Positions 29,502 through 46,332 of a stretch of DNA of 64,000 nucleotides are shown piece by piece. Positions within the stretch are counted from its first letter, which is position 1, and each line of letters starts with the position of its first letter. The position numbers and the translations under genes were made by a program. A model generated the notes under the pieces. The model made no database searches, was not told the origin of the DNA, and was given only the letters and a program-made list of their open reading frames with translations. The DNA is from Phycisphaeraceae bacterium. Its GTDB lineage: Bacteria; Planctomycetota; Phycisphaerae; Phycisphaerales; Phycisphaeraceae. The DNA lies in assembly GCA_020849625.1 (NCBI GenBank), contig JADLFV010000084.1, positions 1 through 64,000 on the forward strand, given 5' to 3'.

Positions 29502-30983
29502 CTAAGCAGGCGCGAATTCGCTTTTGAGCGCCGGATACAGGCGATCGAAGCGCTGTTGCAGCTTGCGATAGACGTCGCGTTGCCGCGCGTCAGGCTTGAT
29601 GGTGCGGGTGACTTCGATGGCGGCCCGGCAGGCTTGCGGGACATTATCAAATTCACCGCAGCCGACGGCCGCCAGCAGGGCGACGCCGTAGGCGGGGCCT
29701 TCTTCACAGTTGATGGTGACACAGGTTGAGCCGTAGATGTTCGCCTGCAATTGTCGCCAGAATGCGCTGCGTGCGCCGCCGCCGGAGAGACGAATCTGAC
29801 TGATGCGCTGGCCGTGACTTCGCAGCAGCAGCAGGGCGTCGTTCATAGCGAAGGTGACGCCTTCCAGGACCGAGCGGGCCAGATCGTTGCGAGTGGTGGT
29901 GGCGCTGATGCCGAACCATCCGCCACGGGCGTGGGGGTCGGCGTGCGGTGTGCGTTCGCCGGTGAGGTAGGGCAGAAAGAAGACGCCGTTGCCGCCCGGT
30001 GATGATTTGGCAGCTTGCGCGGTGAGTTTGTCGTAGGAATCGTTGAGCGTGTCGCGCAGCCACTGGAAGCTGCCGCCGGCCGAGAGGATGCAGCCGAACA
30101 TGCACCACTGGCCCGCCACGCAACTGCAGAAGGTGTTGATGCGGCTGTGCGGATCGGTGCGATAGCGATCGCTGTGGACATAGACCACGCCGCTGGTGCC
30201 GATGGCGGCACTGGTCAGTCCCGCGCGGACGACGCCGTTACCCACCGCACCGGCCGGCTGATCGCCGCCGCCGCCGACCACGGGTGTGCCGGCAGACAGG
30301 CCCATTTCATCGGCAGCTTTGCGGGTCAGTCGGCCGGTGATGTCATGCGATTCGACCACCGGCGGCAGGATGTCGGCATCGATCTGGAACTTCGAGAGCA
30401 TCGGCTTGGACCATTGCCGCGTGCGCTGATCCAGCATCAGCGTGCCGGACATATCGGAGACATCGCCCACGTATTCGCCGGTCATGCGCAGGCGCACGTA
30501 GTCCTTGGGCAGCAGCATGTGTCGGATATTGTCGTAGACGCGCGGCTCGTGGCGGCGGACCCACAGTAGCTTGGTCAGCGTGAAGCTGGTCATGGCGGCG
30601 TTGCCGGTCAGCTTGATGAGCTTGGCTTTGCCGCCGACCATGCGTTCGATCTCGGCAGCTTCGGCCGCGGTGCGCTGGTCGTTCCAGATGATGCTGGGAC
30701 GCAGCGGTTTGCCGACGCGGTCGGTGATGACCAGTCCGTGCATCTGGCCGCTCAAGCCGATGCCTGCGACGTTGCGGCCATTGAAGCGTGCTTTGCGCAG
30801 CACGGAGCGTGTGGCCTTGACGCAGGCGGCGTACCAGTGGCGCGGATCCTGCTCGCTCCAGCCGGGATGTGGTGAGAGCACACCGTACTCGGAGGTGGCA
30901 GTGGCCAGCACGCGGCCGCGGGCGTCCATGATCAGGGCCTTGGTGCCGGAGGTTCCGATGTCGAGTCCGAGGTAGTGGGCCAT
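29502..30983 (-). CDS. xylB: Xylulokinase
   Basis: Phosphorylates D-xylulose to xylulose 5-phosphate for the pentose phosphate pathway. The 493-residue FGGY-family kinase has the phosphate motif LDIGTSGTKALI (about 6-17), GLSGQMHGLV and IIWNDQRTA of the xylulokinase group, GGGGDQPAGAVGNG, and the C-terminal RLSGGGARSAFWRQ. It lies downstream of xylA in the same direction; the 142-base gap holds two hairpin repeats. Confidence 0.95.
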   Translation of the reverse strand: MAHYLGLDIGTSGTKALIMDARGRVLATATSEYGVLSPHPGWSEQDPRHWYAACVKATRSVLRKARFNGRNVAGIGLSGQMHGLVITDRVGKPLRPSIIWNDQRTAAEAAEIERMVGGKAKLIKLTGNAAMTSFTLTKLLWVRRHEPRVYDNIRHMLLPKDYVRLRMTGEYVGDVSDMSGTLMLDQRTRQWSKPMLSKFQIDADILPPVVESHDITGRLTRKAADEMGLSAGTPVVGGGGDQPAGAVGNGVVRAGLTSAAIGTSGVVYVHSDRYRTDPHSRINTFCSCVAGQWCMFGCILSAGGSFQWLRDTLNDSYDKLTAQAAKSSPGGNGVFFLPYLTGERTPHADPHARGGWFGISATTTRNDLARSVLEGVTFAMNDALLLLRSHGQRISQIRLSGGGARSAFWRQLQANIYGSTCVTINCEEGPAYGVALLAAVGCGEFDNVPQACRAAIEVTRTIKPDARQRDVYRKLQQRFDRLYPALKSEFAPA

Positions 30984-31125: not shown

Positions 31126-32439
31126 TTACGAGATGAACTGGTTGATCAGGTTCTCCAGCATCTCGACACGGCCGGACTGATTGGGGGCGATTTCACCTTT
31201 GTCCAGCATGTACCGGCGGGCCTGATCGAGCGTGACCTGGCCGGCTTCGATTTGAGCGCCGATGCCGGTGTCCCAACTGGCGTAGCGCTGCTTAATGAAG
31301 CGATCGAGTGAGCCGTCAGCGCGGATGGCGGCTGCGATCTTGAGGCCTCGGGCGAAGCTGTCCATGGCCCCGATGTGGGCGTGGAACAGATCGATGGGCT
31401 CGAAACTTTCGCGGGCCACCTTGGCGTCGAAGTTGAGGCCGCCGCCTTTGAAGCCGCCGGCTTTGAGGATGGTGAGCATGGCCAGCGTGGTGTCGTAAAT
31501 GTCCGTGGGGAATTGATCGGTGTCCCAGCCCAGCAGCACATCGCCGCGGTTGGCATCGACGGAGCCGAGCTTGTCATTGATCGCGGCCACTTCCAGTTCG
31601 TGCTGGAAGCTGTGCCCGGCCAGGGTGGCGTGGTTGGCTTCGATGTTCAGGTCGAAGTGTTCGAGCAGGTCGTACTTCTGGAGGAACGCCAGGCACGCGG
31701 CAGCATCGCTGTCGTACTGGTGCTTGGTCGGTTCTTTGGGTTTTGGTTCGATGAAGAAGCGACCTTTGAATCCGATCTTGTGCTTGTGCTCGACGGCCAT
31801 GTGCAGCAGGCGGGCCAGGTGATCCAGCTCGCGCTTCATGTCGGTATTGAGAAGTGTCTTGTAACCTTCGCGTCCGCCCCAGAAGACGTAGCCGGCTCCG
31901 CCCAGTGCGTGCGTGACCTCCATGGTCTTGGCGATCTTGGCGGCGGCGTAAGCGAAAGCGTCGGCGTTGCAGCTTGTGCCAGCCCCGTGCATGAAGCGCG
32001 GATTGCTGAAACAGTTGGCGGTGCCCCACAGCAGCTTGACGCCGGTCTTCTGCTGACCTTCCCGCAGCAGCGGCACGATGCGGTCGAAGTTGGCGAAGCT
32101 CTCGGCCAGCGTCGCGCCTTCCGGGGCTACGTCATTGTCGTGGAAGCAGTAGAACTCGATGCCGAGCTTCTGACACATTTCGAAACAGGCGGCGACTTTG
32201 TTGGCGGCCGTTTGCATCGGATCATCAACCTGCCACGGCATCAGTCGGGTGTTGACGCCGAAGGGGTCCGAGCCGCCGCCGCAGAAGCTGTGCCAGTAAG
32301 CGATCGAGAAGCGCAGATGCTCGCGCATCGGTTTGCCTTCGACCAGCTCATCGCGGTTGTAATGTTTGAAGGCCAGCGGGTCGCGGGATTGTGGGCCTTG
32401 GAAAGGAACGCTGCCGATTTGCGGGAAGAATTGGGCCAT
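31126..32439 (-). CDS. xylA: Xylose isomerase
   Basis: Converts D-xylose to D-xylulose. The protein has 437 residues from the ATG at 32439; the upstream in-frame extension to 32484 overlaps the neighbouring gene and is not family-like. Family blocks: [20 protein letters not shown] (about 41-60), [13 protein letters not shown] with the catalytic His and Asp (about 97-109), [42 protein letters not shown] and DSFARGLK. The length is that of the class II enzymes. The methyltransferase gene ends 10 bases upstream, so they may share a transcript. Confidence 0.96.
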
Positions 32440-32449
32440 GCCCCAAAGC

Positions 32450-33289
32450 TTAACCGATCGTCTGCACTGAGCAAGAGGGCGCAAGGCGGCGGCCGAACAC
32501 GCCCACGTCGCCCAGGCGGCCCAGCGGTGGACAGTAGCGCATCAACTCATAGTCAGCCCGCTGAAGCTTCCAGTACAGCCCGCGCAGACGATCGGGACGC
32601 AGGCGATAAGCACGCTGCAGCAGGGAGAAGCGCTGGAAGAACACCGGCTGGGCAAAGGTCCGGTTGATCAGGCGAATCTCGTCGCGCCCGAGCTTGCGTT
32701 CGTCTTCCGTCACGTGCACGTCGCGCTGCAGCGAGACCTGCCGGCGGCGGTGCATGAGCGTGCGCAATGCGTCCAGCGGATTGTCCGCCAGCGGTTCCTT
32801 GAAGATCGCCACGCCGCCCGGGCGCAGCACGCGGGCCAGTTCCTTCAGCACGGCGCTTACTTCCACGTGATGCAGAAAGTCAATGCCCACCACCACGTCG
32901 AAACTATGGTCGGGAAAGCCGAGTCGCTCGGCGGGCATGGCCAGAAAACGGCATCTGTCGGATAGTTCGTGTTGCTGGGCCAGCCGGCGGGCCACTGCGA
33001 GATTACCCTCGGAGATGTCGAAGCCGGTGACCTGGAAACCGAGTTTTGCAAAGCAGACGGAAGCCGCGCCCATGCCGCAGCCGGCATCGAGCAGCGCGCG
33101 AGCGCCGGCGTCATAAGCATCGCGCACCAGGCGGCAGACAGTCCAGTAAGGGCTCCACGGCCGGCGCTGGTTGCTGAGCACGGGTGTGAAGTCCACCTGG
33201 CGCACGGCATGAAGATGAGCGTACTGATCGTAATAGGAAGCTTCGCGCTTCTGGCGATCGGTGCAGACGGTGGCCGGGGCGCTGCTCAT
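32450..33289 (-). CDS. Class I SAM-dependent methyltransferase
   Basis: A 279-residue methyltransferase of unknown substrate. Motif I is [19 protein letters not shown] at about 66-84, the acidic ribose-binding residue is in [10 protein letters not shown], and post-I motifs are [15 protein letters not shown] and [19 protein letters not shown]. The C-terminal 90 residues are basic ([20 protein letters not shown]). It lies 10 bases upstream of xylA, but nothing in the protein links it to xylose. Confidence 0.82.
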
Positions 33290-35754: not shown

Positions 35755-36477
35755 TCAAATGTGCAGGGCCACGGCGGCGGCGGTCGCGGCCAGTCCGCCC
35801 AGCAGCGGGCCGATGACCGGGACCCAGGCATACCCCCAGTCGCTGTCGCGCTTGCCGGGGATGGGCAGGATGGCGTGAGCGATGCGCGGGCCCAGGTCAC
35901 GGGCTGGGTTGATGGCATAGCCGGTGGTCCCGCCCAGCGACAGGCCGATGGCCAAGACCAGCAGGCCGACTGGCAGGGCTCCGAGGCTGCCCAGGCCGAC
36001 GGTGGGGGTGTTGCCGGTGGTTCCCATGCAGAAGATGGGAAAAACCAGCATGAAGGTGCCCAGGACCTCGCAGAAGAAATTGTTGGGAATGTTGCGGATG
36101 GCCGGGCCGGTGCAGAAGACGGCCAGCTTGAGGTCGGCATTGTCGCTGGCGGCAAAGTGATCTCGGTAGTGGAAAAAGACCAACATGCCACCGAGGATGC
36201 CGCCGAGCATCTGGGCTGCGATGTATCCGCCGGCCGTGGCGACGCTGATTTTGCCCGCCGCCAGCATGGCGACGGTGACCGCCGGGTTGATGTGAGCGCC
36301 GCTGTAAGCCGCGACGCAGAACACCGCCACGAACACGCCCATGGCCCATCCGAAGGTGATGACGATCCAGCCACCACCCTGGCCCTTGGTCTTGTTGAGC
36401 ACCACGTTGGCGACCACGCCATCACCGAAGATGACCAGAATGGCCGTGCCGATCAATTCCGCGAGAAAATAGTGCAT
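35755..36477 (-). CDS. glpF: Glycerol uptake facilitator (aquaglyceroporin)
   Basis: A 240-residue inner-membrane channel with six helices and the two NPA half-helices: HINPAV (63-68) and INPARDLGPR (189-198). The Asp of NPARD marks glycerol facilitators rather than water channels. GGTTGYA precedes the second box. It is encoded 54 bases downstream of glpK in the same direction, the classic glycerol-uptake pair in reversed order. Confidence 0.95.
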   Translation of the reverse strand: MHYFLAELIGTAILVIFGDGVVANVVLNKTKGQGGGWIVITFGWAMGVFVAVFCVAAYSGAHINPAVTVAMLAAGKISVATAGGYIAAQMLGGILGGMLVFFHYRDHFAASDNADLKLAVFCTGPAIRNIPNNFFCEVLGTFMLVFPIFCMGTTGNTPTVGLGSLGALPVGLLVLAIGLSLGGTTGYAINPARDLGPRIAHAILPIPGKRDSDWGYAWVPVIGPLLGGLAATAAAVALHI

Positions 36478-36531: not shown

Positions 36532-38034
36532 TTAGCTGGAAGTGCGTGGCTCCCACTCGGCAGCCCGGCGCAACGCTTCGCTCCAGCGGGAACGATGCTG
36601 AGCCACTTCATCGGCAGGCATTCGCGGCTCGAAGCGGCGCTCGACCAGCCAGTGATGGGCGATTTCGTCGAGGTTTTTCCAGAACCCGACCGCCAGACCC
36701 GCCAGGTATGCAGCGCCCAATGCGGTGGTCTCGGTGATTTTCGGGCGCACCGTGGGCACGCCCAGCATGTCCGCCTGGAACTGCATCAGCAGGTTGTTGG
36801 CCGCCGCACCGCCATCGACGCGCAGCTCCTTGATCTTGACGTGAGCGTCCTGCTGCATGGCGTCCAGCACGTCGGCGACCTGGTAAGCGATGCCCTCGAG
36901 GGCGGCTCGGGCCAGGTGGGCGGCGGTAGCACCGCGGGTCAGGCCGGTGATAATGCCGCGGGCGTACTGATCCCAGTGCGGAGCGCCCAGGCCGGCGAAA
37001 GCGGGCACGAGATAGACGCCGCCGTTGTCGGGCACACTGGCGGCCAGTTGCTCGATTTCCGGGGCGGATTTGATGATTTTCAAACCGTCACGCAACCACT
37101 GCACCACAGCGCCGGCAATGAAGACGCTGCCTTCCAGTGCGTAGGTGGTTTTCGAGTTGACCTGCCAACCGGCGGTGGTCAGCAGCTTGTTTTTGGACGC
37201 GGTGGGCTTGTCGCCGATGTTCATGAGCATGAAGCAGCCGGTGCCGTAGGTGTTCTTGGCCATGCCGGGTTGGAAACAGGCCTGGCCGAAGAGAGCCGCT
37301 TGCTGGTCGCCGGCAATGCCCGCGATGGGAATGGCTTTGCCCAACAGGTCGGAAGTTGTCGCGGCGATCTGTCCACTGCTGGCGTGAATCTGCGGCAGCA
37401 CGCTGCGCGGCACGCCGATCAGCTCGAGCATCTGTTCGTCCCAGTCGCCGGTGGCGATGTCCATCAGCAAGGTGCGCGAGGCGTTGGTGATGTCGGTAAC
37501 GTGCGTCTTGCCGCCGGTCATCTTCCAGATCAGCCAGGTGTCGATGGTGCCGAAGGCCAGTTCCCCTTTTTCAGCGCGTTGTCGTGCCCCGGGGACGTTG
37601 TCCAGCAGCCAGCGGATTTTGGAGCCGGAGAAGTAAGCATCGACCACCAGGCCGGTCTTTTGTTGGATGAGTTTGTCCTGGCCTGCTTTGCGCAACTGAT
37701 CGCAGAAAGCGCTGGTGCGGCGGTCCTGCCAGACGATGGCGTTGGCGATGGGCTTGGAAGTCTTGCGATCCCAGACGACAGTGGTCTCGCGCTGATTGGT
37801 GATGCCGATGGCGGCAATGTCGGCGGCGCTGATCTTGGCTTTTGCCATCGCCTGTTTGGCGACGGTCAATTGCGTGGTCCAGATTTCCTCCGCGTTGTGC
37901 TCGACCCAGCCTGCCTGGGGATAAATCTGTTCGAACTCCTGCTGGGCGACGGCCAGGATGTTGCCGCCGTGATCGAAAAGGATGGCCCGAGAGCTGGTGG
38001 TTCCCTGATCCAGAGCGAGAATGGCTTGCACCAT
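36532..38034 (-). CDS. glpK: Glycerol kinase
   Basis: ATP-dependent phosphorylation of glycerol to sn-glycerol 3-phosphate, trapping it after GlpF entry. The 500-residue protein starts at 38034 ([20 protein letters not shown]); the longer frame is not family-like. Blocks include [72 protein letters not shown] and [13 protein letters not shown]-type [16 protein letters not shown]. It is divergent from the BMC operon; the 216-base gap between them must hold both promoters. Confidence 0.97.
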
Positions 38035-38181
38035 GTTGATCCTTTCGTCGAGAGGGGACGCGGGGCGAACGCCTTTGAAAAGAGGATAGCGAGCCTGAGC
38101 AGAAGGTTCAGGCGGCCGGGGTTTATGGAAGATCATGCCGGCGTCGCAGATGGGAGATTGTGATATATTTTGTCTTAAGAA

Positions 38182-38210
38182 TTGCAAGTAATGGAATAAT
38201 TTGGTAGATT
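38182..38210 (+). promoter_or_regulatory. Candidate promoter of the BMC operon
   Basis: TTGCAA (38182-38187), a 17-base spacer and TAGATT (38205-38210) in an unusually AT-rich patch 40 bases before pduL. TGGTAGATT is repeated directly at 38202 and 38212, so the -10 region is part of a direct repeat that could be bound by the DeoR protein encoded at the far end of the operon. Both assignments are by eye. Confidence 0.5.
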
Positions 38211-38250: not shown

Positions 38251-38985
38251 GTGACAGCCGCCACCCTCGCCGATCTTCCGCAACTTAAGTCTCTGAAAGG
38301 ACTTGAGCGAAGCCAGGTCGAGCAGATCGTCCGGCAGGTTCTGCGCGACCACTGGGCCGGCCCTTTGCCCAGTTACCGTGACAGCCGGCCACACGACGGG
38401 CCGAACCCCCTGGTGGTCAATGTTTCCGCCCGCCATGCCCACGTCACGCAGGCCGATCTGGAAGTGCTCTTCGGCCCCGGATCAAAGTTGACCAAGCTCA
38501 AGGACCTTTATCAGGAAGGCGAGTTCGCCAGCGAGCAGACCGTCAACATCATCATCCCCGGCAGCCCGCGCAATCGCATGACACCCAACGTGCGAATCCT
38601 CGGCCCCACCCGCAACTACACGCAGGTTGAACTCAGCTACACCGATGGCGTCTTCCTCGGCCTAGACCTGCCGCTGCGCATCAGCGGCGATCATCGTGAC
38701 ACGCCCGGCTGCGTGCTGGTCGGTCCGCACGGTGCGCTGACCTTGCGGCAGGGCGTCATTCGCGCTGAGCGGCACGTGCACATGAGCCCGGCCGACCTGA
38801 AGCACTTCGGCGTCAAGGACGGTGACTACATGAAGCTGAAGATCGAAGGGCCCTGCGGCCTGGTCTTCGACCGCGTCAAAGTGCGCCAGCATCCCAAGGT
38901 GCGACTGGAAGTGCACATCGACACCGACGAAGGCAACGCCTGCCACCTGGACACGGCCACACGTATGGAGCTGTTGAAGATTTAA
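38251..38985 (+). CDS. pduL: PduL-type phosphotransacylase with encapsulation helix
   Basis: Converts acyl-CoA to acyl phosphate and releases CoA inside the microcompartment. The 244-residue protein starts with GTG. It has the two PduL beta-barrel domains with metal-binding VSARHAHVT (about 58-66) and AERHVHMSPADL (about 172-183). The N-terminus (about 12-34, LKGLERSQVEQIVRQVLRDH) is an amphipathic helix typical of targeting to a BMC lumen. It is the first gene of the operon. In this pathway the substrate is expected to be lactyl-CoA. Confidence 0.95.
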   Translation: MTAATLADLPQLKSLKGLERSQVEQIVRQVLRDHWAGPLPSYRDSRPHDGPNPLVVNVSARHAHVTQADLEVLFGPGSKLTKLKDLYQEGEFASEQTVNIIIPGSPRNRMTPNVRILGPTRNYTQVELSYTDGVFLGLDLPLRISGDHRDTPGCVLVGPHGALTLRQGVIRAERHVHMSPADLKHFGVKDGDYMKLKIEGPCGLVFDRVKVRQHPKVRLEVHIDTDEGNACHLDTATRMELLKI

Positions 38986-39102: not shown

Positions 39103-39390
39103 ATGGCACAAGCAGCACTCGGCATGGTGGAAACCAAGGGCCTGACCGCCCTGATGGAGGCCAGCGACGCGATGCTCAAGGCCGCCAACGTCACGATGAT
39201 CGGCTGGGACAAATGCGGCGCGGGGCTGGTCACCAGCTTCATCAGCGGCGACGTGGCTGCGGTCAAAGCAGCCATCGACGCAGGCGCTGCGGCTGCCGGT
39301 CGCGTCGGCAGTCTGGCGGCCGTGCACGTCATCCCCCGGCCGCACGATGAACTGACCAACGTCATGCCCAAGTCCCCCCGGAAGAAGTAA
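39103..39390 (+). CDS. BMC-H shell protein 1 (hexamer), Cys in pore loop
   Basis: A 95-residue single-domain shell hexamer of the PduA/EutM type. [20 protein letters not shown] opens the BMC fold, and [21 protein letters not shown] and [11 protein letters not shown] close it. At the pore position, where PduA reads KIGSG, this protein reads KCGAG, placing six Cys around the central pore. The C-terminal extension [10 protein letters not shown] is basic. A ribosome site ACGGAG precedes it. It is the first of three BMC-H genes in the operon, each with its own pore sequence. Confidence 0.96.
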
Positions 39391-39442: not shown

Positions 39443-39709
39443 ATGGCTTCACTAGGCATTCTGGAAACCCGCGGCGAGACCGGCCTGATGCAGGCCACCG
39501 ACGCCATGCTCAAGGCCGCGGACGTCAAGCTCGTCAAGAGCATCGCGATCGGCGGCGGCTACGTCACCGTGATCGTGCAGGGAGATGTCGGTTCGGTCAA
39601 AGCGGCGATTGACGCAGGCGCTGAGGCCGGCGGGCGCGTGGGCGAACTGGTCGCGGCTCACGTGATTCCCCGGCCGCACGACGCGCTGTTGGCCTCGTTC
39701 GGTGCGTAA
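39443..39709 (+). CDS. BMC-H shell protein 2 (hexamer)
   Basis: An 88-residue shell hexamer: [52 protein letters not shown]. The pore loop reads AIGGGY, with Ala in place of the usual Lys, so its pore is smaller and uncharged. AGGAG lies 14 bases before the start. It is close to shell protein 1 in sequence, so the two may form mixed facets. Confidence 0.96.
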
Positions 39710-39710
39710 C

Positions 39711-39767
39711 GAGCCGGACTCTGTGAGTCCGGTTTTCCGGGGGCCGGGAACACAGTTCCCGGCTCTG
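39711..39767. repeat. ACTCTGTGAGT-type repeat before the kinase gene
   Basis: Two hairpins, GAGCCGGACTCTGTGAGTCCGG and CCGGGAACACAGTTCCCGGCTC, fill almost the whole gap between shell gene 2 and the kinase. Other members are at 43513-43630 (inside a gene) and 46269-46332. Confidence 0.9.
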
Positions 39768-39779
39768 ATATGGAATCCC

Positions 39780-40961
39780 ATGATCGTGCTCGTGGCCAAC
39801 CTCGGCTCGACCAGCTTCAAATACAAGCTGTTCGACCTCGACGCTCAAAGCCAGCAGGTGCTGGCCCGCGGTGACGCTGATCGCATCGGCTTGGGCGACA
39901 GCCGCTGGTCCATCACCGCGCCGCAGGGCGAAGGCTCCGGCAAGCGCGATCTTGCGGACCACGGTCAGGCCATCGACCTGCACCTGGAGCAGCTTGGCAA
40001 GCTTGGCGTCGAGCAGGCGAGTCGTCTGGAAGCCATCGGCTTCAAGGCCGTGCACGGCGGCCCGATCAGCGGGGCGGTGCGCGTGGACGACGAAGTGATT
40101 GCCGTGATGGAACGTTTTGCAGATCTGGCTCCCGCGCATAATCCGCCCTACATCGCGGCCATGCGATCTTTCCATGAGAAACTTCCGGGGGTTCCGCAGG
40201 TTGCGGCGTTTGAGACGGCTTTTCACCAGAGCATTCCCCTGGCACGACAGGTCTATGGCACGCCGTACGAGTGGATCGACATGGGTGTGCGCCGTTATGG
40301 CTTCCACGGCGCGTCCAACACCTACATCGCCCGCCGCATGAAGCAGATCGATCCCGATTCGGGCCGCATCATCAACCTGCACCTGGGCGGCTCCAGCTCC
40401 GTCTGCGCCATCCGCGACGGAAAAAGCTGCGCCAACTCTTTCGGCACCACGGCCCAGTCGGGTCTGTTTCACGCCAGCCGCGTGGGCGACTTCGATGCCT
40501 TCGCCATGCTCATGCTGCAGAAGCACGGGCTCAGCCAGCAGGACATATTCAGGAAGCTCGCCAGCGGTGGGGGACTGGCCGGCCTCAGCGGCGTGAGCCC
40601 CGACATGCGACTGGTGAAGCAGGCGGCTGCGCAGGGCAACGCCCACGCCCAGTTGGCCATCGACGCTTTCATCGAGGCGATTCGCCACTACCTGGGGGCC
40701 TACCTTGTGGTGCTGGGAGGCGTCGATGCCATCACCTTCACCGGCGGCATCGGTCAGCACGACTGGCAACTGCGTCAGGCGGTGCTGGCGGACCTGGATT
40801 TCCTGGGCTTGCAACTGGATCAGAAGAAAAACGAATCGGCCCCCGGCAATGGGGAATCGTGCATCAGCGGGTCAGATAGCAACGTGAACGTCTGGGTGCT
40901 GCCGACCGACGAGGAGTTGGTCGTCGCCCGCCAGACATTTGAGGTGATTACCAACAACTGA
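39780..40961 (+). CDS. Divergent acetate-kinase-family enzyme (acyl-phosphate kinase)
   Basis: Expected to make ATP from an acyl phosphate (lactyl or acetyl phosphate) released by PduL. The 393-residue protein starts at 39780 (MIVLVANLGSTSFKYKLF); the upstream frame is repeat DNA. The ASKHA fold blocks are present, but several active-site positions differ from characterised acetate kinases: FKAVHGG for HRVVHGG, FETAFHQ for FDTAFHQ, GFHGASN for GFHGTSH, and HLGGSSS for HLGNGAS. ASRVGDFD keeps the catalytic Arg, and PTDEELVVAR keeps the C-terminal Glu. Substrate choice may therefore differ from acetate. Confidence 0.85.
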   Translation: MIVLVANLGSTSFKYKLFDLDAQSQQVLARGDADRIGLGDSRWSITAPQGEGSGKRDLADHGQAIDLHLEQLGKLGVEQASRLEAIGFKAVHGGPISGAVRVDDEVIAVMERFADLAPAHNPPYIAAMRSFHEKLPGVPQVAAFETAFHQSIPLARQVYGTPYEWIDMGVRRYGFHGASNTYIARRMKQIDPDSGRIINLHLGGSSSVCAIRDGKSCANSFGTTAQSGLFHASRVGDFDAFAMLMLQKHGLSQQDIFRKLASGGGLAGLSGVSPDMRLVKQAAAQGNAHAQLAIDAFIEAIRHYLGAYLVVLGGVDAITFTGGIGQHDWQLRQAVLADLDFLGLQLDQKKNESAPGNGESCISGSDSNVNVWVLPTDEELVVARQTFEVITNN

Positions 40962-40990: not shown

Positions 40991-41254
40991 ATGGCACAGC
41001 AATCCATCGGAACCATCGAGACCAAAGGCATCATCGCCTCGGTCGAAGCGCTGGACGCAGCGTTGAAGGCGGCCAACGTCACCTTCGTGCGCCAGGACAA
41101 AGTCGGCAGCGGCTTTGTGGCGATCACCGTCACCGGCGACGTCGCGGCGGTCAAGGCAGCCATCGACGCCGGCGCCGAGGCGGCCCGCCGCGTGGGCGAA
41201 GTCGTCTCGGTCAACGTCATCGCCCGCCCGCACGAGGACGTGGCGAAGCTGTAG
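40991..41254 (+). CDS. BMC-H shell protein 3 (hexamer)
   Basis: An 87-residue shell hexamer: [51 protein letters not shown]. The pore loop is KVGSG, the closest of the three to the PduA sequence. It starts 29 bases after the kinase gene with ACGGAG as ribosome site. It is more diverged from shell proteins 1 and 2 than they are from each other. Confidence 0.96.
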   Translation: MAQQSIGTIETKGIIASVEALDAALKAANVTFVRQDKVGSGFVAITVTGDVAAVKAAIDAGAEAARRVGEVVSVNVIARPHEDVAKL

Positions 41255-41256
41255 CA

Positions 41257-41315
41257 CATAGCCCCGGCCTTGGCCGGGGTTCCAGGCGCATCCCCAGCCA
41301 AGGCTGGGGCTATAT
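41257..41315. repeat. TAGCCCC-type paired hairpin in the BMC operon
   Basis: ATAGCCCCGGCCTTGGCCGGGG and CCCCAGCCAAGGCTGGGGCTAT form two hairpins with complementary outer arms. It is the same family as 17057-17108 and fills most of the gap before the first pentamer gene. Confidence 0.9.
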
Positions 41316-41337
41316 GCCAGGTGAAAGGAGCTTCAAC

Positions 41338-41688
41338 ATGTTCCTCGCCAGAGTCAAAGGCCACGTGGTGGCCACCGTGAAGGACAAGTCGGTCGGCGGC
41401 AGTAAGCTGCTGATCGTCGAGCCGCTGAAGGTTGACTACGAGCATGACAAACTCGCTGCGACGCCGGAAAATGGAAATTCCGGGGGCGGACGGTTCGGCG
41501 TCACCGGACGGGCCATCGTGGCCATGGACATGATCGGCGCAGGCATCGATCAGTTGGTGCTGGTGACACAGGGCTCCAGCGCCCGCATGGCTGAGGGCTG
41601 CAACAAGATTCCCACCGACGCGGTGATCATCGGCATCGTCGATGAAGCGGTCGTCGGTTCCAAGAAAATCTATGACGGCAAGTCATGA
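41338..41688 (+). CDS. BMC-P shell protein 1 (EutN/CcmL pentamer)
   Basis: A 116-residue vertex protein: MFLARVKGHVVATVKDKSVG, GSKLLIVEPL, AGIDQLVLVTQGSSARMAEG, VIIGIVDEAVVGSKKIYDG. The ATG at 41338 follows AAAGGAGC; the frame is open from 41314. It is longer than the other two pentamers because of a loop containing ATPENGNSGGGRFG, encoded around a TTCCGGGGG string. The stop overlaps the aldehyde dehydrogenase start by four bases (ATGA). Confidence 0.95.
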   Translation: MFLARVKGHVVATVKDKSVGGSKLLIVEPLKVDYEHDKLAATPENGNSGGGRFGVTGRAIVAMDMIGAGIDQLVLVTQGSSARMAEGCNKIPTDAVIIGIVDEAVVGSKKIYDGKS

Positions 41689-43100
41689 ATCAGCAACTGT
41701 TGGTTGACAACGTGGTGCAAGAGGTGCTTCGCCGGCTGGCGATGAATCAATCGTCATCGCAACCGCCGCAGGCGAAGCTATCGGACGGTTCGGGCTTATT
41801 CCCGGATGCCGACTCGGCGGTCGCGGCCGCGACGCGCTCGCAGAAACAACTGGCGGCCAAAGACCTGAACGTGCGCGACGGCATCTGCAAGCTCATCAAG
41901 CAGATGGCCAAGCAGAACGCCGACGCCTGGGGCCGCATGGAATATGCCGAGACGAAAGTCGGCCGACTCGAGCACAAGGCTGCCAAGCTGGAGTTGCTGG
42001 AGAAGGTGCCCGGCGTGGAGTTCCTGCGCACGACGGCTCACAGCGGCAGTGCCGGCATCGGGTTGGATGAAGGTGCGCCGTGGGGCGTGATCGGCGTCAT
42101 CACACCGGTGACTCACTCCGTGCCCACGGTCAGCGCCAACGCCATCAACATGATCGCGGCCGGCAACGCCATGGTCATCAACGCCCATCCTTCCGGCGCC
42201 AACTGCCTGGCCACCGCGGTCGAAGCGTACAACCGGGCCATCAAGGACAAGTTCGGCATCGACCCGCTGATGTGCGTGATTCATCCGCCGACGCTGCGCA
42301 CGGCTGAAGCGGTTTTTCAGCATCCCGACATTCCGCTGCTGGTGGCGACCGGCGGCCCGGCTGTGGCGCGGGCGGCCGCCAAGCAACCCAAACGGGCGAT
42401 TGTGGCCGGACCGGGCAATCCGCCGGTGGTCGTCGATGAGACGGCCGACCTGGATCGGGCGGCATACTCCATCATTTTCGGCGGCGGCTTCGACAACAAC
42501 CTGCTGTGCATCGGCGAAAAGGAAGTGTTCGTCGTCGAGTCGGTGTTCGACCGCATGATGGATGCGATGAAGCGGGCCGGCGCGGTGCGGCTGGATGCCG
42601 GGCAGATCGCGCGGCTGACCGAGCAGGCGCTGACCAAACACGGCGAACACTGGGTGGCTCAGAAGGATTTCGTGGGCAAGAATCCCAGCGTGCTGGCCAA
42701 GGCGGTGGGGATGAGCATCGACGACAAAGTCGAGTTGCTTTTCGGTGAAACGCCGGCCGAGCATCCATTTGTCACGGCCGAGCAGATGATGCCGTTCATG
42801 CCCTTCGTGCGCTGCCGCGATTTCGATCAGGCCCTGGCGATGGCGCTGAAGTACGAGCACGGCTTCCAACACACCGCCCTGATCCACTCCAACAACTTCA
42901 AGAACATCACCCGCATGGGGCAAGCGATGAACACCACGATCTTTGTCGTCAACGGCCCCTGCACCGCGGGCCTGGGCATCGAGGGCGAAGGCTATCCCAG
43001 TTACTCGATCGCCACGCCCAGCGGTGAAGGCATTACCAACCCCTTGACCTTTACGCGCTTCCGCCGCATGAGCATCAGCGGGGCGCTGCGCATGGTGTAG
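41685..43100 (+). CDS. CoA-acylating aldehyde dehydrogenase (PduP-like)
   Basis: Oxidises an aldehyde, expected to be lactaldehyde, to its CoA ester with NAD+ in the microcompartment lumen. The 471 residues begin with an amphipathic helix (about 3-19, QQLLVDNVVQEVLRRLA) and a Ser/Gln/Pro linker, a cargo-targeting arrangement. The catalytic domain shows ETKVGRLEHKAAK, GVIGVITPVTHSVPTVSANA and NNLLCIGEKEV with the active Cys at 275. It is coupled to the pentamer gene before it. NADH must be reoxidised by an enzyme not encoded here. Confidence 0.95.
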   Translation: MNQQLLVDNVVQEVLRRLAMNQSSSQPPQAKLSDGSGLFPDADSAVAAATRSQKQLAAKDLNVRDGICKLIKQMAKQNADAWGRMEYAETKVGRLEHKAAKLELLEKVPGVEFLRTTAHSGSAGIGLDEGAPWGVIGVITPVTHSVPTVSANAINMIAAGNAMVINAHPSGANCLATAVEAYNRAIKDKFGIDPLMCVIHPPTLRTAEAVFQHPDIPLLVATGGPAVARAAAKQPKRAIVAGPGNPPVVVDETADLDRAAYSIIFGGGFDNNLLCIGEKEVFVVESVFDRMMDAMKRAGAVRLDAGQIARLTEQALTKHGEHWVAQKDFVGKNPSVLAKAVGMSIDDKVELLFGETPAEHPFVTAEQMMPFMPFVRCRDFDQALAMALKYEHGFQHTALIHSNNFKNITRMGQAMNTTIFVVNGPCTAGLGIEGEGYPSYSIATPSGEGITNPLTFTRFRRMSISGALRMV

Positions 43101-43186: not shown

Positions 43187-43456
43187 ATGCAGCTTGCACG
43201 CATCATCGGCCGCGCCACCAGCACCGTGAAGCACCGCTCGCTCAGCGGCGCCAAGCTGCTGATCGCACAGACGGTCAGTGTGGATCGCAAGCTCGAAGGC
43301 GATCCCCTGCTGGTGGTCGATCGACTCGGCGCCGGCCACGGCGACCTGGTGCTGATCACCAGTGATGGCCTTGGATTGCGGCAACTGCTCAACGACGACA
43401 ACAGCCCGGCCCGATGGTGGACGCTGGGCATCGTGGACCACGCGGAAATTGCATGA
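43187..43456 (+). CDS. BMC-P shell protein 2 (EutN/CcmL pentamer)
   Basis: An 89-residue vertex protein: MQLARIIGRATSTVKHRSLS, GAKLLIAQTVSVDRKLEG, VVDRLGAGHGDLVLITSDG and WTLGIVDHAEIA. Its stop overlaps the start of the RpiB-like gene by four bases. The final NDDNSPARWWTLGIVDH is the usual assembly segment. Confidence 0.95.
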   Translation: MQLARIIGRATSTVKHRSLSGAKLLIAQTVSVDRKLEGDPLLVVDRLGAGHGDLVLITSDGLGLRQLLNDDNSPARWWTLGIVDHAEIA

Positions 43457-44265
43457 GCCAGATTGATCCCCAACTCGTGCAGCGAATCGCCGACGAGGTG
43501 ATGCGGGCGATGACCGGACTCACAGAGTCCGGCTCGGTCAAGCCGGGTTCCCCCGAATCACGGATGGGTATGTGTCAGGCTGCGCCGTCGTCCTGCTCGA
43601 CTTCATCCGGCCTCGCAGAGTCCGGCTCGGATGGCCGCCGCGCCAAGCCGAACCTCAGCGGATTCGTCACCGCCAACCAGTTGGAAGATGCGCTGAACGC
43701 TGCCAAGGGCGGATCGGTGACGCTGGCTGCTGACGCGAAACTGACGCCGCTGGCTCAGGATCTGGTGCGCAAGTTCGCCAAGCGCGTGCGGCGGGAGGGC
43801 GTGTCGGAAGATTCAACGGACATCGGCCAGATCGTGGGCGGGTTGCCCTGGATGTGGTGGACCTGCGGCAGTTGCCAGGCGGTGCAGCGGGTGGTGGAGG
43901 AGCGGCGATCGCGCCTGCTTCCGTGCATTGCGCCGCGGCAGGGACGCATGATCGCCCGAGCGGTGCGCGACATCGACGCCGCGGTAGCTGAGGGGCGAGC
44001 GGCCGGTGGTTTGATGTTCGTCACCAAAGCGGCGCGGGCGATGTGTCTGGCCAATCGTCGCCGGGCGCTGCGGGCGATCCTGGGGCATTGCGATGACGCT
44101 GTCAGCGAAGGGATTGCCGAGGTCGGCGCGAATCTGCTGGTGCTGGAGTTTCCGTTTAACGATTACGCACAGATGGCCCGCCGGGTGGACCTGATGCTGG
44201 CAATCGCGCCGGGTGTGCCGGCCGAGATGCGTTCGCTGCTGGCGACGACGGAAGGGGTGGTCTGA
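43453..44265 (+). CDS. RpiB-like protein of the BMC operon, function unknown
   Basis: A 270-residue protein. Residues 3-20 (QIDPQLVQRIADEVMRAM) form an amphipathic helix like those on known cargo. Residues about 21-66 are largely encoded by two ACTCACAGAGT-type repeats, so this linker is repeat-derived. From about 120 the protein reads LPWMWWTCGSCQAVQRVVEE and then AARAMCLANRRRALRAILGH..GANLLVLE, which follows the ANK-GIRA...NANVL order of RpiB/LacAB sugar-phosphate isomerases, but their catalytic residues are not kept. It is coupled at both ends to pentamer genes. Lumenal isomerase-like or structural roles are both possible. Confidence 0.75.
   Translation: MSQIDPQLVQRIADEVMRAMTGLTESGSVKPGSPESRMGMCQAAPSSCSTSSGLAESGSDGRRAKPNLSGFVTANQLEDALNAAKGGSVTLAADAKLTPLAQDLVRKFAKRVRREGVSEDSTDIGQIVGGLPWMWWTCGSCQAVQRVVEERRSRLLPCIAPRQGRMIARAVRDIDAAVAEGRAAGGLMFVTKAARAMCLANRRRALRAILGHCDDAVSEGIAEVGANLLVLEFPFNDYAQMARRVDLMLAIAPGVPAEMRSLLATTEGVV
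43513..43630. repeat. ACTCTGTGAGT-type repeats inside the RpiB-like gene
   Basis: CCGGACTCACAGAGTCCGGCTC (about 43514-43535) and a variant CCGGCCTCGCAGAGTCCGGCTC (about 43607-43628) are read in frame as GLTESGS and GLAESGS. Between them lies GCCGGGTTCCCCCGAATC, like part of the 39711 copy. Confidence 0.88.
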
Positions 44266-44573
44266 TGCGCATCGGACGTGTGACAGGTCAGGTGACGCTC
44301 GGGCGCAAGCTGGCGGAACTGCCGGCAGCGAGTCTGCTGGTTGTCGAAGCGCTGGATGTGACTGCCCTGCTGGGCCACGACCAGGGCGCCCATCGGGCCA
44401 AGGCGGACTCGCAGTCGCTGGTGGTGCTCGATCAACTGGGTGCGGCTGTCGGCCAACTGATCGCGGTCAGTGAAGGACGCGAGGCAACCATGCCGTTTTA
44501 TCCGCAGCGCGTGCCGATCGATGGCTATTGTGCGGCGATTCTTGATCAAATCGAGGTGGAGGTTCCGTCATGA
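44265..44573 (+). CDS. BMC-P shell protein 3 (EutN/CcmL pentamer)
   Basis: A 102-residue vertex protein: MRIGRVTGQVTLGRKLAELP, GASLLVVEALDV-type ASLLVVEALDVTALLGH, SLVVLDQLGAAVGQLIAVSE and VPIDGYCAAILDQIEVE. Its start overlaps the previous stop by one base (TGATG) and its stop overlaps the aldolase start by four, so translation is coupled on both sides. Confidence 0.93.
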   Translation: MRIGRVTGQVTLGRKLAELPAASLLVVEALDVTALLGHDQGAHRAKADSQSLVVLDQLGAAVGQLIAVSEGREATMPFYPQRVPIDGYCAAILDQIEVEVPS

Positions 44574-45430
44574 CCCACACACCGATCTGGCAACTGAAGA
44601 AACAGATGTGCGAAATCGGCAGCAACATCTGGCAGCGCGGCTTCTGTGCCGGCAACGAAGGCAATCACTCCGTGCGCATCAGCGACGATCGCGTGCTATG
44701 CACTCCGACCGGCGTGTCCAAGGGTTTCCTCAAGCCCGAAGACATCTGCGTGGTCGATATGGACGGCAAGCAGGTCGAAGCCAATCCCGCCGGGCGCAAG
44801 CGCACCAGTGAAGTGCTCGTACATCTGGCGATCTACAAGCAGCTTCCGAACACAAAAGCGGTGATCCACTCGCATCCGCCGCACGCGGTGGCGTTCTGTC
44901 TGGCGGGCATGCCGCTGCCGGAAGGCATTCATCCGGAAGCGGAGGTGTTCCTCGGCCGCACCGTGTTTGCGCCTTACGCCACACCCGGTGGCCCGGACTT
45001 GCCCAACAGTTTCCTGGGCAAGATCACCGAGCAGACCAACACGATTCTGATGGCCAACCACGGCTCGGTCAGCCTGGGCAAAGACCTGACCGAAGCCTAC
45101 TACCGCCTGGAAATCCTCGACAACTACGCCAAGCAGCTCATCCTCGCCCGCCAACTGGGCAAGGTGAACGTGCTCAAGAACGACCAGATGGTCGAGCTGC
45201 TGCAACTCAAGCAGGCGTTCGGTTTCCCCGATGACCGGCTCAGTTGCGCGGCCGACGGCTGCGTGGGGCAGGACAACCGCGTGTTCCTGGCGAGCTTCGG
45301 CATCACGCCCATGTCCGCTCGTTGCGACGGCCCCGGCGGGCTGGTCAGCAGCACCAGTGGACACGATGATGACGACTTTGAAAAGATGGTCCAGACCATC
45401 ACCGATCAGATCATGGCTGCCTCAAATTGA
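44570..45430 (+). CDS. Class II aldolase (fuculose/rhamnulose-1-phosphate type)
   Basis: Zinc-dependent aldolase expected to split a 6-deoxyketose 1-phosphate into DHAP and L-lactaldehyde, the aldehyde the shell retains. In 286 residues: substrate site GNEGNHSVRIS (about 27-37), zinc ligands in VIHSHPPHAVAF (about 98-109) and LMANHGSVSLG. The C-terminus (about 268-285, DDDDFEKMVQTITDQIMAAS) is an acidic linker and amphipathic helix, a C-terminal encapsulation peptide. It is the last structural gene. Rhamnulose versus fuculose specificity cannot be read by eye. Confidence 0.93.
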   Translation: MTHTPIWQLKKQMCEIGSNIWQRGFCAGNEGNHSVRISDDRVLCTPTGVSKGFLKPEDICVVDMDGKQVEANPAGRKRTSEVLVHLAIYKQLPNTKAVIHSHPPHAVAFCLAGMPLPEGIHPEAEVFLGRTVFAPYATPGGPDLPNSFLGKITEQTNTILMANHGSVSLGKDLTEAYYRLEILDNYAKQLILARQLGKVNVLKNDQMVELLQLKQAFGFPDDRLSCAADGCVGQDNRVFLASFGITPMSARCDGPGGLVSSTSGHDDDDFEKMVQTITDQIMAASN

Positions 45431-45487: not shown

Positions 45488-46264
45488 ATGTTGATCGTCG
45501 AACGACACAACCAGTTGCTCAATGTGCTCAAGCAGCGCGGTTCGGCTGGTCTCGATGAACTGGCCCGGATGTTCGACGTCAGCGTCTCGACCATTCGCCG
45601 CGACGTCGATACACTCGAAGAACGTAAGCTGGTGCGGCGCACGCACGGCGGCGTGGTTTACGAAGGCAACGGCTTGGCTGAGCTTGCTCCTTCTTCCGGG
45701 GGCGGGGGTGGAGCGCTGGCTCAGCGCATGACCGAGCAGGTCGAGCAGAAGCAGATCATCGGCAGTTGCGCCGCGGCCTTGGTGCAGCCGCGCATGACGG
45801 TGTTGCTGGACGGCGGCTCGACCGTCATCTTCGCCGCACGGCAGATCACCACACGCCCGATCCAGGTGGTCACCAGTTCGCTGGCCGTGGCCCAGCACTT
45901 TGCCGACGACGACCAGGTGGAGCTGACGCTGATCGGCGGCACGCTCTATCCACGCACCGGCGTCATGGTGGGCCCGCTGGCGCGGCAGTGTGCGGGCGAC
46001 CTGTTTGCCGACCTGTGCTTCATCAGTCTGGCCGGGATCGACGAGGAAGCGGGCTACAACATCAACCTGGAATTGGCGCGGGTCGAGCGGGTGATGATCG
46101 AGCAGGCGGCCCACAAGGTGCTGCTGATGGATTCGAGCAAGTTCGGCCGTCGCTCGCTGGTGCGCGTCTGCGGCCTGGATGCCATCGACGCCATCCTGAC
46201 CGATGGCGGCATCGGCGCGGAATGGCGGTCGCGGCTCGGTGAAAAACTGGTGGTCGCAAAGTAG
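45488..46264 (+). CDS. DeoR-family transcriptional regulator of the BMC operon
   Basis: A 258-residue sugar-phosphate-sensing regulator. The N-terminal winged helix is at about 3-58 (RHNQLLNVLKQRGSAGLDEL, then VSTIRRDVDTLEERKLVRRTHGG-type recognition helix). The DeoR sensor domain follows from about 90 (LDGGSTVIFAARQIT; GGTLYPRTGVMVGPLA; MDSSKFGRRSLVRVCGLD). A Gly-rich stretch PSSGGGGGAL is encoded by a TTCCGGGGG string. Position at the operon end and the family suggest repression lifted by a deoxysugar phosphate. Confidence 0.93.
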   Translation: MLIVERHNQLLNVLKQRGSAGLDELARMFDVSVSTIRRDVDTLEERKLVRRTHGGVVYEGNGLAELAPSSGGGGGALAQRMTEQVEQKQIIGSCAAALVQPRMTVLLDGGSTVIFAARQITTRPIQVVTSSLAVAQHFADDDQVELTLIGGTLYPRTGVMVGPLARQCAGDLFADLCFISLAGIDEEAGYNINLELARVERVMIEQAAHKVLLMDSSKFGRRSLVRVCGLDAIDAILTDGGIGAEWRSRLGEKLVVAK

Positions 46265-46268
46265 ACGC

Positions 46269-46332
46269 ACCGGACTCACAGAGTCCGGCTCTGTCCGTTG
46301 GCGTCATCCGAGCCGGACTCTGTGAGTCCGGT
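46269..46332. repeat. ACTCTGTGAGT-type repeat after the BMC operon
   Basis: CCGGACTCACAGAGTCCGGC and its inverse copy CCGGACTCTGTGAGTCCGG (each itself a hairpin) lie five bases after the DeoR stop. It may end the operon transcript, although no T-run follows. Confidence 0.88.

Follow-up and report, generated by a model that had tools for sequence, protein, structure and literature searches.

It is unsettled how catabolic microcompartments fix cargo to their shell, and EutQ and PduM have each been described in isolation so far. The stretch of DNA analysed here (64,000 nucleotides from a Phycisphaeraceae bacterium, referred to as the window) raises the question of what is done by a gene, hereafter X, that lies between two shell pentamer genes. 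Single-sequence searches of Pfam, NCBIfam and PDB with its product gave nothing useful, and the C-terminal half was without a Pfam match. An earlier note on this DNA had described X as an RpiB-like protein with a CxxC motif and had considered a redox, metal-binding or shell-scaffold role as likely as isomerase activity. The gene is real, being an intact open reading frame for 270 amino acids, and its operon contains the following genes:

38251..38985, + strand: PduL-type phosphotransacylase (PF06130, E=5.5e-67)
39103..39390, + strand: BMC-H1 hexamer gene (PF00936)
39443..39709, + strand: BMC-H2 hexamer gene (PF00936)
39777..40961, + strand: acetate/propionate-family kinase (PF00871)
40991..41254, + strand: BMC-H3 hexamer gene (PF00936)
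41314..41688, + strand: BMC-P1 pentamer gene (PF03319)
41685..43100, + strand: CoA-acylating aldehyde dehydrogenase, AldDH (NF011927, E=2.7e-167), with an N-terminal encapsulation-type peptide read from the sequence
43187..43456, + strand: BMC-P2 pentamer gene (PF03319), ATGA overlap with X
43453..44265, + strand: X, 270 aa, candidate pseudo-RpiB core-shell linker (intact ORF, orthologues in the same slot)
44265..44573, + strand: BMC-P3 pentamer gene (PF03319), TGATG overlap with X
44570..45430, + strand: class II aldolase with a C-terminal encapsulation-type peptide and without the TPxAxD module described below
45488..46264, + strand: DeoR-family regulator, named by sequence and by the PVM operon plan (PMC11958385)

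The translational coupling of X to two pentamer genes, proposed in the earlier note, agrees with start/stop overlaps on both sides (ATGA at 43453 between BMC-P2 and X, TGATG at 44265 between X and BMC-P3; a further ATGA at 44570 joins BMC-P3 and the aldolase) and with the assignment of both neighbours to the EutN/CcmL-type BMC-P family (PF03319, E=1.8e-22 upstream and 2.8e-16 downstream). The locus has the PVM gene set, namely class II aldolase, AldDH, PduL, AckA, BMC-H and three BMC-P genes, and the same set has been reported for PVM fucose/rhamnose microcompartments (PMC4207490; PMC8857213; PMC11958385). Judged by position and gene order only, the slot of X is probably that of pvmL in P. limnophila. 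Genes whose translations read as glycerol-kinase-like (36532-38187, - strand) and aquaporin/glycerol-facilitator-like (35755-36477, - strand) are divergent from the microcompartment operon, and genes reading as FGGY-type sugar kinase-like (29502-30983, - strand) and xylose-isomerase-like (31126-32484, - strand) are located upstream.

The AlphaFold2 model of X, made with the orthologue alignment, had a mean pLDDT of 83 and placed a helix at residues 6-25, disorder at 27-61 (pLDDT < 50 across these residues), a small domain at 62-118 and an RpiB fold from residue 130. The resulting anatomy of helix, linker, module and dead RpiB fold is well supported:

43453..43527, + strand: N-terminal encapsulation-type amphipathic helix, residues 1-25 (PQLVQRIADEVMRAMTGL)
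43528..43650, + strand: disordered linker, residues 26-66 (low pLDDT)
43651..43803, + strand: TPxAxD module, residues 67-117, beta-alpha-beta-alpha-beta, with TP at 98-99 and D103
43840..44256, + strand: RpiB-fold pseudoenzyme domain, residues 130-268
43864..43875, + strand: CxxC (Cys138-Gly-Ser-Cys141), species-specific, at the first strand-loop of the RpiB fold, the position of Asp-His in RpiB

The earlier note had identified the RpiB-like half correctly, but it overlooked the N-terminal helix and the TPxAxD module. The same parts were apparent from the orthologues. The locus collection drew on AldDH matches at the chosen cut-off, which were present in 47 of 392 planctomycete genomes and included a small number of divergent non-PVM loci. 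Of the 44 planctomycete loci fetched, 38 have a gene at the place of X, flanked by BMC-P2 and BMC-P3, and X was detected by HMM in 70 of 80 further named loci, which came from a profile search of genome contigs with a conserved AldDH alignment. Three parts were conserved in the orthologue alignment: the N-terminal helix, the TPxAxD motif, and a CxANR...RA...N pattern at the C-terminus. Among 96 aligned orthologues Pro99 was invariant, and the conservation of Thr98, Asp103, Asn227, Arg202 and Asn201 was 0.89-0.95.

The module, about 45 residues long, connects X to other microcompartment proteins. When its model was run against the genome to which X belongs, X was the only match (E=7.5e-14), and on 690 ORFs of the window X scored 49.8 bits against 9.4 for the next. 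Neither a sequence match in the PDB nor a significant Foldseek match was obtained for the module, and its fold is therefore known from AlphaFold2 only. Outside PVM loci the model matched EutT and EutQ at their N-termini, TIGR02536-type proteins at their C-termini, and also an Enterococcus EutQ-like cupin and eut proteins of Cetobacterium. Alignments by hhalign gave E=2.6e-8 for EutT, E=1.7e-6 for EutQ over its residues 2-46, and E=2.1e-4 for PduM together with two TIGR02536-type proteins. PduM alone was a weak match (pairwise E=0.021); a bridge from PduM through TIGR02536 to the module is supported by an Ilyobacter protein, the C-terminus of which was matched by both the PduM and the TIGR02536 models. 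It has been reported that EutQ residues 9-41 (H1/H2) are required for shell attachment and residues 62-99 for cargo, and that its partners in the shell are EutM and EutL (PMC12487888). This shell-attachment part falls inside the aligned EutQ stretch (2-46), which equates the two module helices with H1/H2, and the homology suggests that X docks on the shell through its module. Genes of the module or PduM type were also seen directly adjoining an EutN/BMC-P gene in Cetobacterium (L108, 11262-13766), Ilyobacter (L107, 12628-13618) and Kosakonia (L106, 4581-5343).

The N-terminal helix has the features of an encapsulation signal. Among the 18-mers of the window, residues 6-23 ranked at the 99.8th percentile for hydrophobic moment. 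An HMM built only from the C-terminal peptides of verrucomicrobial aldolases and run on 332 ORFs of the window put the window's own aldolase at the top and X next (E=0.015), the third-ranked ORF being at background. A helix pattern upstream of the module was present in 82 of 96 orthologues, compared with 12% of shuffles; about six Phycisphaerae orthologues seem to be helix-less and to start right at the module, and their start codons may be misread. Encapsulation peptides drive condensation of the core (PMC12339742), and an N-terminal encapsulation signal is a trait of PduM that X, by sequence and model only, shares.

The linker that follows contains two in-frame copies of a DNA repeat, CAGAGTCCGGCTCGG, at 43523-43537, overlapping the end of the helix-coding part, and at 43616-43630. 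Further copies are located in the window at 39709-39723 (-), 46308-46322 (-) and 46279-46293 (+), and genome-wide the repeat was found at 47 places with at most one mismatch, against 0 for the reversed control. An interspersed element therefore seems to have expanded the linker. The Phycisphaerae orthologues (L061-L064, L127-L136) have a conserved linker motif, PPxGxCTGDYSKF, which is degraded to RMGMCQAA in the X of the window at the site of the repeat.

From the experiments on EutQ and PduM, the shuffling of the module between carriers and the position in the operon, we infer that X is a pseudoenzyme that links the core of the PVM microcompartment to its shell. We regard this as the best reading, with a probability of roughly 0.6, and it favours the shell-scaffold role that the earlier note had offered as one of several. 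The helix of X would join the condensate of aldolase and AldDH via their own encapsulation peptides, the module would dock on the inner face of the shell in the way of EutQ helices H1/H2, and the dead RpiB domain would be the dimeric, multivalent body by which X could bridge core and shell during assembly. PduM is a precedent, as a signal at its N-terminus targets it to the core and without PduM core and shell come partly apart, although accounts of its mode of action differ between papers (PMC9132943; PMC12108088).

Recurrence of the slot and of the three-part plan across planctomycete PVM loci argues for the core-shell linker, and so does the recognition of X by an encapsulation-peptide HMM from another phylum. 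The loss of catalytic residues throughout the family, the shell genes found at non-PVM module loci and one in-frame fusion of X to BMC-P3 in a MAG (L197) point the same way. The verrucomicrobial loci suggest that an equivalent job can be done by the module fused to the aldolase. The module stood at the aldolase N-terminus in 25 of 26 verrucomicrobial PVM loci (in the remaining one, L244, the aldolase reads RLTPGAKD by eye), and there BMC-P2 adjoins BMC-P3 and X or another separate module carrier is absent. Among 109 planctomycete loci in which an aldolase was within reach, 104 had the module on a gene of its own and none had it on the aldolase. The verrucomicrobial class II aldolase thus resembles X in its operon type and in bearing both the module and an encapsulation-type peptide, and differs in that the module is fused to the enzyme in one polypeptide and no RpiB-like domain is present. 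Against the core-shell linker stand the apparently helix-less orthologues, the weakness of the match to PduM alone, and four deviating PVM loci: two with neither X nor module (L101, L148) and two from Gemmatales (L158, L200), in which X has shrunk to an RpiB-like domain of about 150 aa lacking both helix and module.

The Gemmatales proteins show that the RpiB-like domain can be retained without the helix or the module, and this domain may therefore have an independent role, for instance in dimerisation or pentamer contact. That the C-terminal half is RpiB-like, as the earlier note had stated, is supported by profile comparisons and by the model. The orthologue profile matched 13 RpiB/LacAB chains at E <= 0.05 (best 4e-4), hhalign gave E=2.3e-9 against canonical RpiB, and the AlphaFold model matched RpiB over 119-146 residues with Z of 14.6-17.6. 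RpiB/LacAB came out on top in both Foldseek and VIA; in VIA 19 entries had Z of 14.6-17.6 compared with 8.8 for the next unrelated fold, and the best Z of 17.6 corresponded to 2.0 A over 119 residues. The fold at residues 130-268 is predicted to be complete and the whole of it is shared with RpiB/LacAB (PF02502), including the RpiB of SPU-type microcompartments, and X retains the ANK-like, RA and NV framework.

The active site, however, is not intact. The earlier note had stated that the catalytic residues are absent, and a column comparison with the RpiB of the same genome agrees: in the X family the Cys base (Cys/Glu across RpiB/LacAB) is replaced by Thr, Val, Ala or Ser and the active-site His by Gln, Glu, Ala or Ser, the anion-hole glycines (Gly-Ser/Thr-Gly) are gone, and the Asp-His after strand 1 is lost, the X of the window having Cys-Gly there. 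The compared positions were lost in essentially all of the 96 orthologues. Judged by its motif, the conserved Asn227 corresponds to the structural Asn further along the HNDAN stretch and is not counted as a catalytic residue.

A conserved domain without catalysis could instead be a sensor, in that the RpiB-like pocket would bind a sugar phosphate of the pathway and regulate the aldolase, AldDH or the shell pores, while the helix and the module would only deliver it. The solitary domain of Gemmatales and the conservation of Cys198, Asn201, Arg202, Arg207 and Asn227 are consistent with such ligand sensing, but the loss of the Asp-His, the Cys base, the anion-hole glycines and the active-site His, and the lack of an RpiB-like domain in verrucomicrobial PVM loci, make it unlikely.

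It is also rather improbable that X is simply a cargo or vertex-associated protein, imported by its helix and module and placed between BMC-P genes because it assembles together with the pentamers, a proposal that overlaps in part with the core-shell linker. The slot lies strictly between BMC-P genes, module carriers adjoin EutN-type genes elsewhere, and in one planctomycete MAG (L197) X and BMC-P3 form a single reading frame. However, that fusion comes from a single MAG and may be an assembly error, and EutQ touches EutM and EutL, not EutN (PMC12487888). A second apparent fusion of X and BMC-P3, in L193, was discounted because the stretch holds N and a frame change.

The earlier note had also pointed to the cysteines and offered a redox or metal-binding role as one possibility. 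WWTCGSCQ (Cys138, Cys141) and LLPC (Cys158) are present as it described, so that three Cys do exist in the X of the window, and Cys141 is retained in 18 of 21 Phycisphaerae-type orthologues. However, the CxxC occurs in 1 of 96 orthologues, that of the window, position 138 being Asp in 14 and Gln in 5 of the 21 Phycisphaerae-type orthologues (G also occurs), and Cys158 is a Cys in 1 of 21 close relatives, again only in the window. The earlier note had named homologues lacking the Cys as a refuting outcome, and this is what the orthologues show; the redox or metal-binding reading therefore fails and is largely refuted by conservation. The one widely conserved Cys is Cys198 (73 of 96 orthologues), within the AMCLANR that the earlier note had quoted while passing over this residue.

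Although the RpiB fold is present and SPU-type microcompartments contain RpiB (PMC8217296), it is very improbable that X is an active RpiB-type isomerase, and its parity with a scaffold role is unsupported, because the catalytic residues are lost and two canonical RpiB genes are located elsewhere in the same genome.

The core-shell linker proposed here would work like EutQ, PduM and TIGR02536 proteins while not being one of them. EutQ, the linker of the ethanolamine microcompartment, has an N-terminal module homologous to that of X and shell-binding in EutQ (for X by homology only), accompanied by cargo-binding helices and a separate body domain. In EutQ this body is a cupin, active as an acetate kinase, and the cargo is bound by H3/H4 after the module, whereas X has an RpiB fold as its body and an encapsulation-type helix that precedes the module; against the EutQ family NF012001, X scored under the 193-bit cut-off and lacked the cupin C-terminal domain. 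PduM, from the propanediol microcompartment, has an N-terminal encapsulation signal, a C-terminus that resembles the module and a gene that adjoins a BMC-P gene (pduN-like). It differs in that no RpiB domain was detected, the module is C-terminal and without the TP proline, and the similarity is significant only via TIGR02536-type intermediates. X gave no match at E <= 1 to the PduM families TIGR04493/NF011957 (cut-offs 50/179 bits), for which the best X members reached about 16 bits, and according to one paper (PMC12108088) no homologues of PduM are known outside Pdu. Proteins of TIGR02536, an ethanolamine utilization family, carry the module C-terminally, where 23 of 34 X members matched, and are otherwise unrelated to X; the best X member reached about 25 bits, over the module only, against a cut-off of 152.6 bits.

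The module was found on further carriers. Its model matched 95 of 392 planctomycete genomes (E <= 0.001), and BMC-H or BMC-P genes were present in 24 of 40 fetched non-PVM planctomycete module loci. Among the carriers were ACT-domain proteins, triosephosphate isomerase (PF00121, E=5e-76) and RpiB whose catalytic motifs are intact (PF02502, E=6e-50 and 2e-46); the latter two enzymes are established constituents of SPU microcompartments (PMC4207490; PMC8217296). Seven carriers of the module with an active-type RpiB sit beside BMC-P genes in non-PVM planctomycete loci. The order helix-module-RpiB with intact catalytic residues recurs in L291, L307, L313 and other planctomycete loci, whose proteins retain the Asp-His, the anion hole and the C-terminal Arg that X has lost, and this suggests that X descended from an encapsulated isomerase. 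In a tree of RpiB domains X formed one group on a branch of length 5.5, too long to be placed among RpiBs, and the proposed descent therefore rests on the shared architecture.

We tentatively propose, at a confidence somewhat short of even, a wider reading with two parts. In the first, the module would be a mobile element for docking on shells, used by microcompartments in general and carried by EutQ, EutT, PduM, TIGR02536 proteins, verrucomicrobial PVM aldolases, microcompartment RpiB, triosephosphate isomerase, ACT proteins and X. In the second, X would have begun as an encapsulated isomerase, lost its catalysis and come to serve planctomycetes as the core-shell linker of their fucose/rhamnose organelle. 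If so, a single docking mechanism would be provided by one short module that EutQ, EutT, TIGR02536 proteins, X and several enzymes have in common and that changes carriers while keeping its place in the organelle; it would also be a candidate targeting tag for engineering, and X would document how an enzyme can become a scaffold.

Several other carriers were observed. Triosephosphate isomerase with an N-terminal module occurs in L284, L286, L288, L293 and L300, from genomes without a PVM locus, and no shell genes were present within the stretches fetched around these genes. ACT-domain proteins with an N-terminal module occur in L289, L292, L306, L308, L311, L318 and L321, each with shell genes in the same stretch, and also in L290. 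In L289, L305, L308, L310, L318 and L321, short proteins that consist of the module and a small C-terminal part (e.g. ...YVVVVKNGVASI...) adjoin BMC-H genes and are possible minimal linkers.
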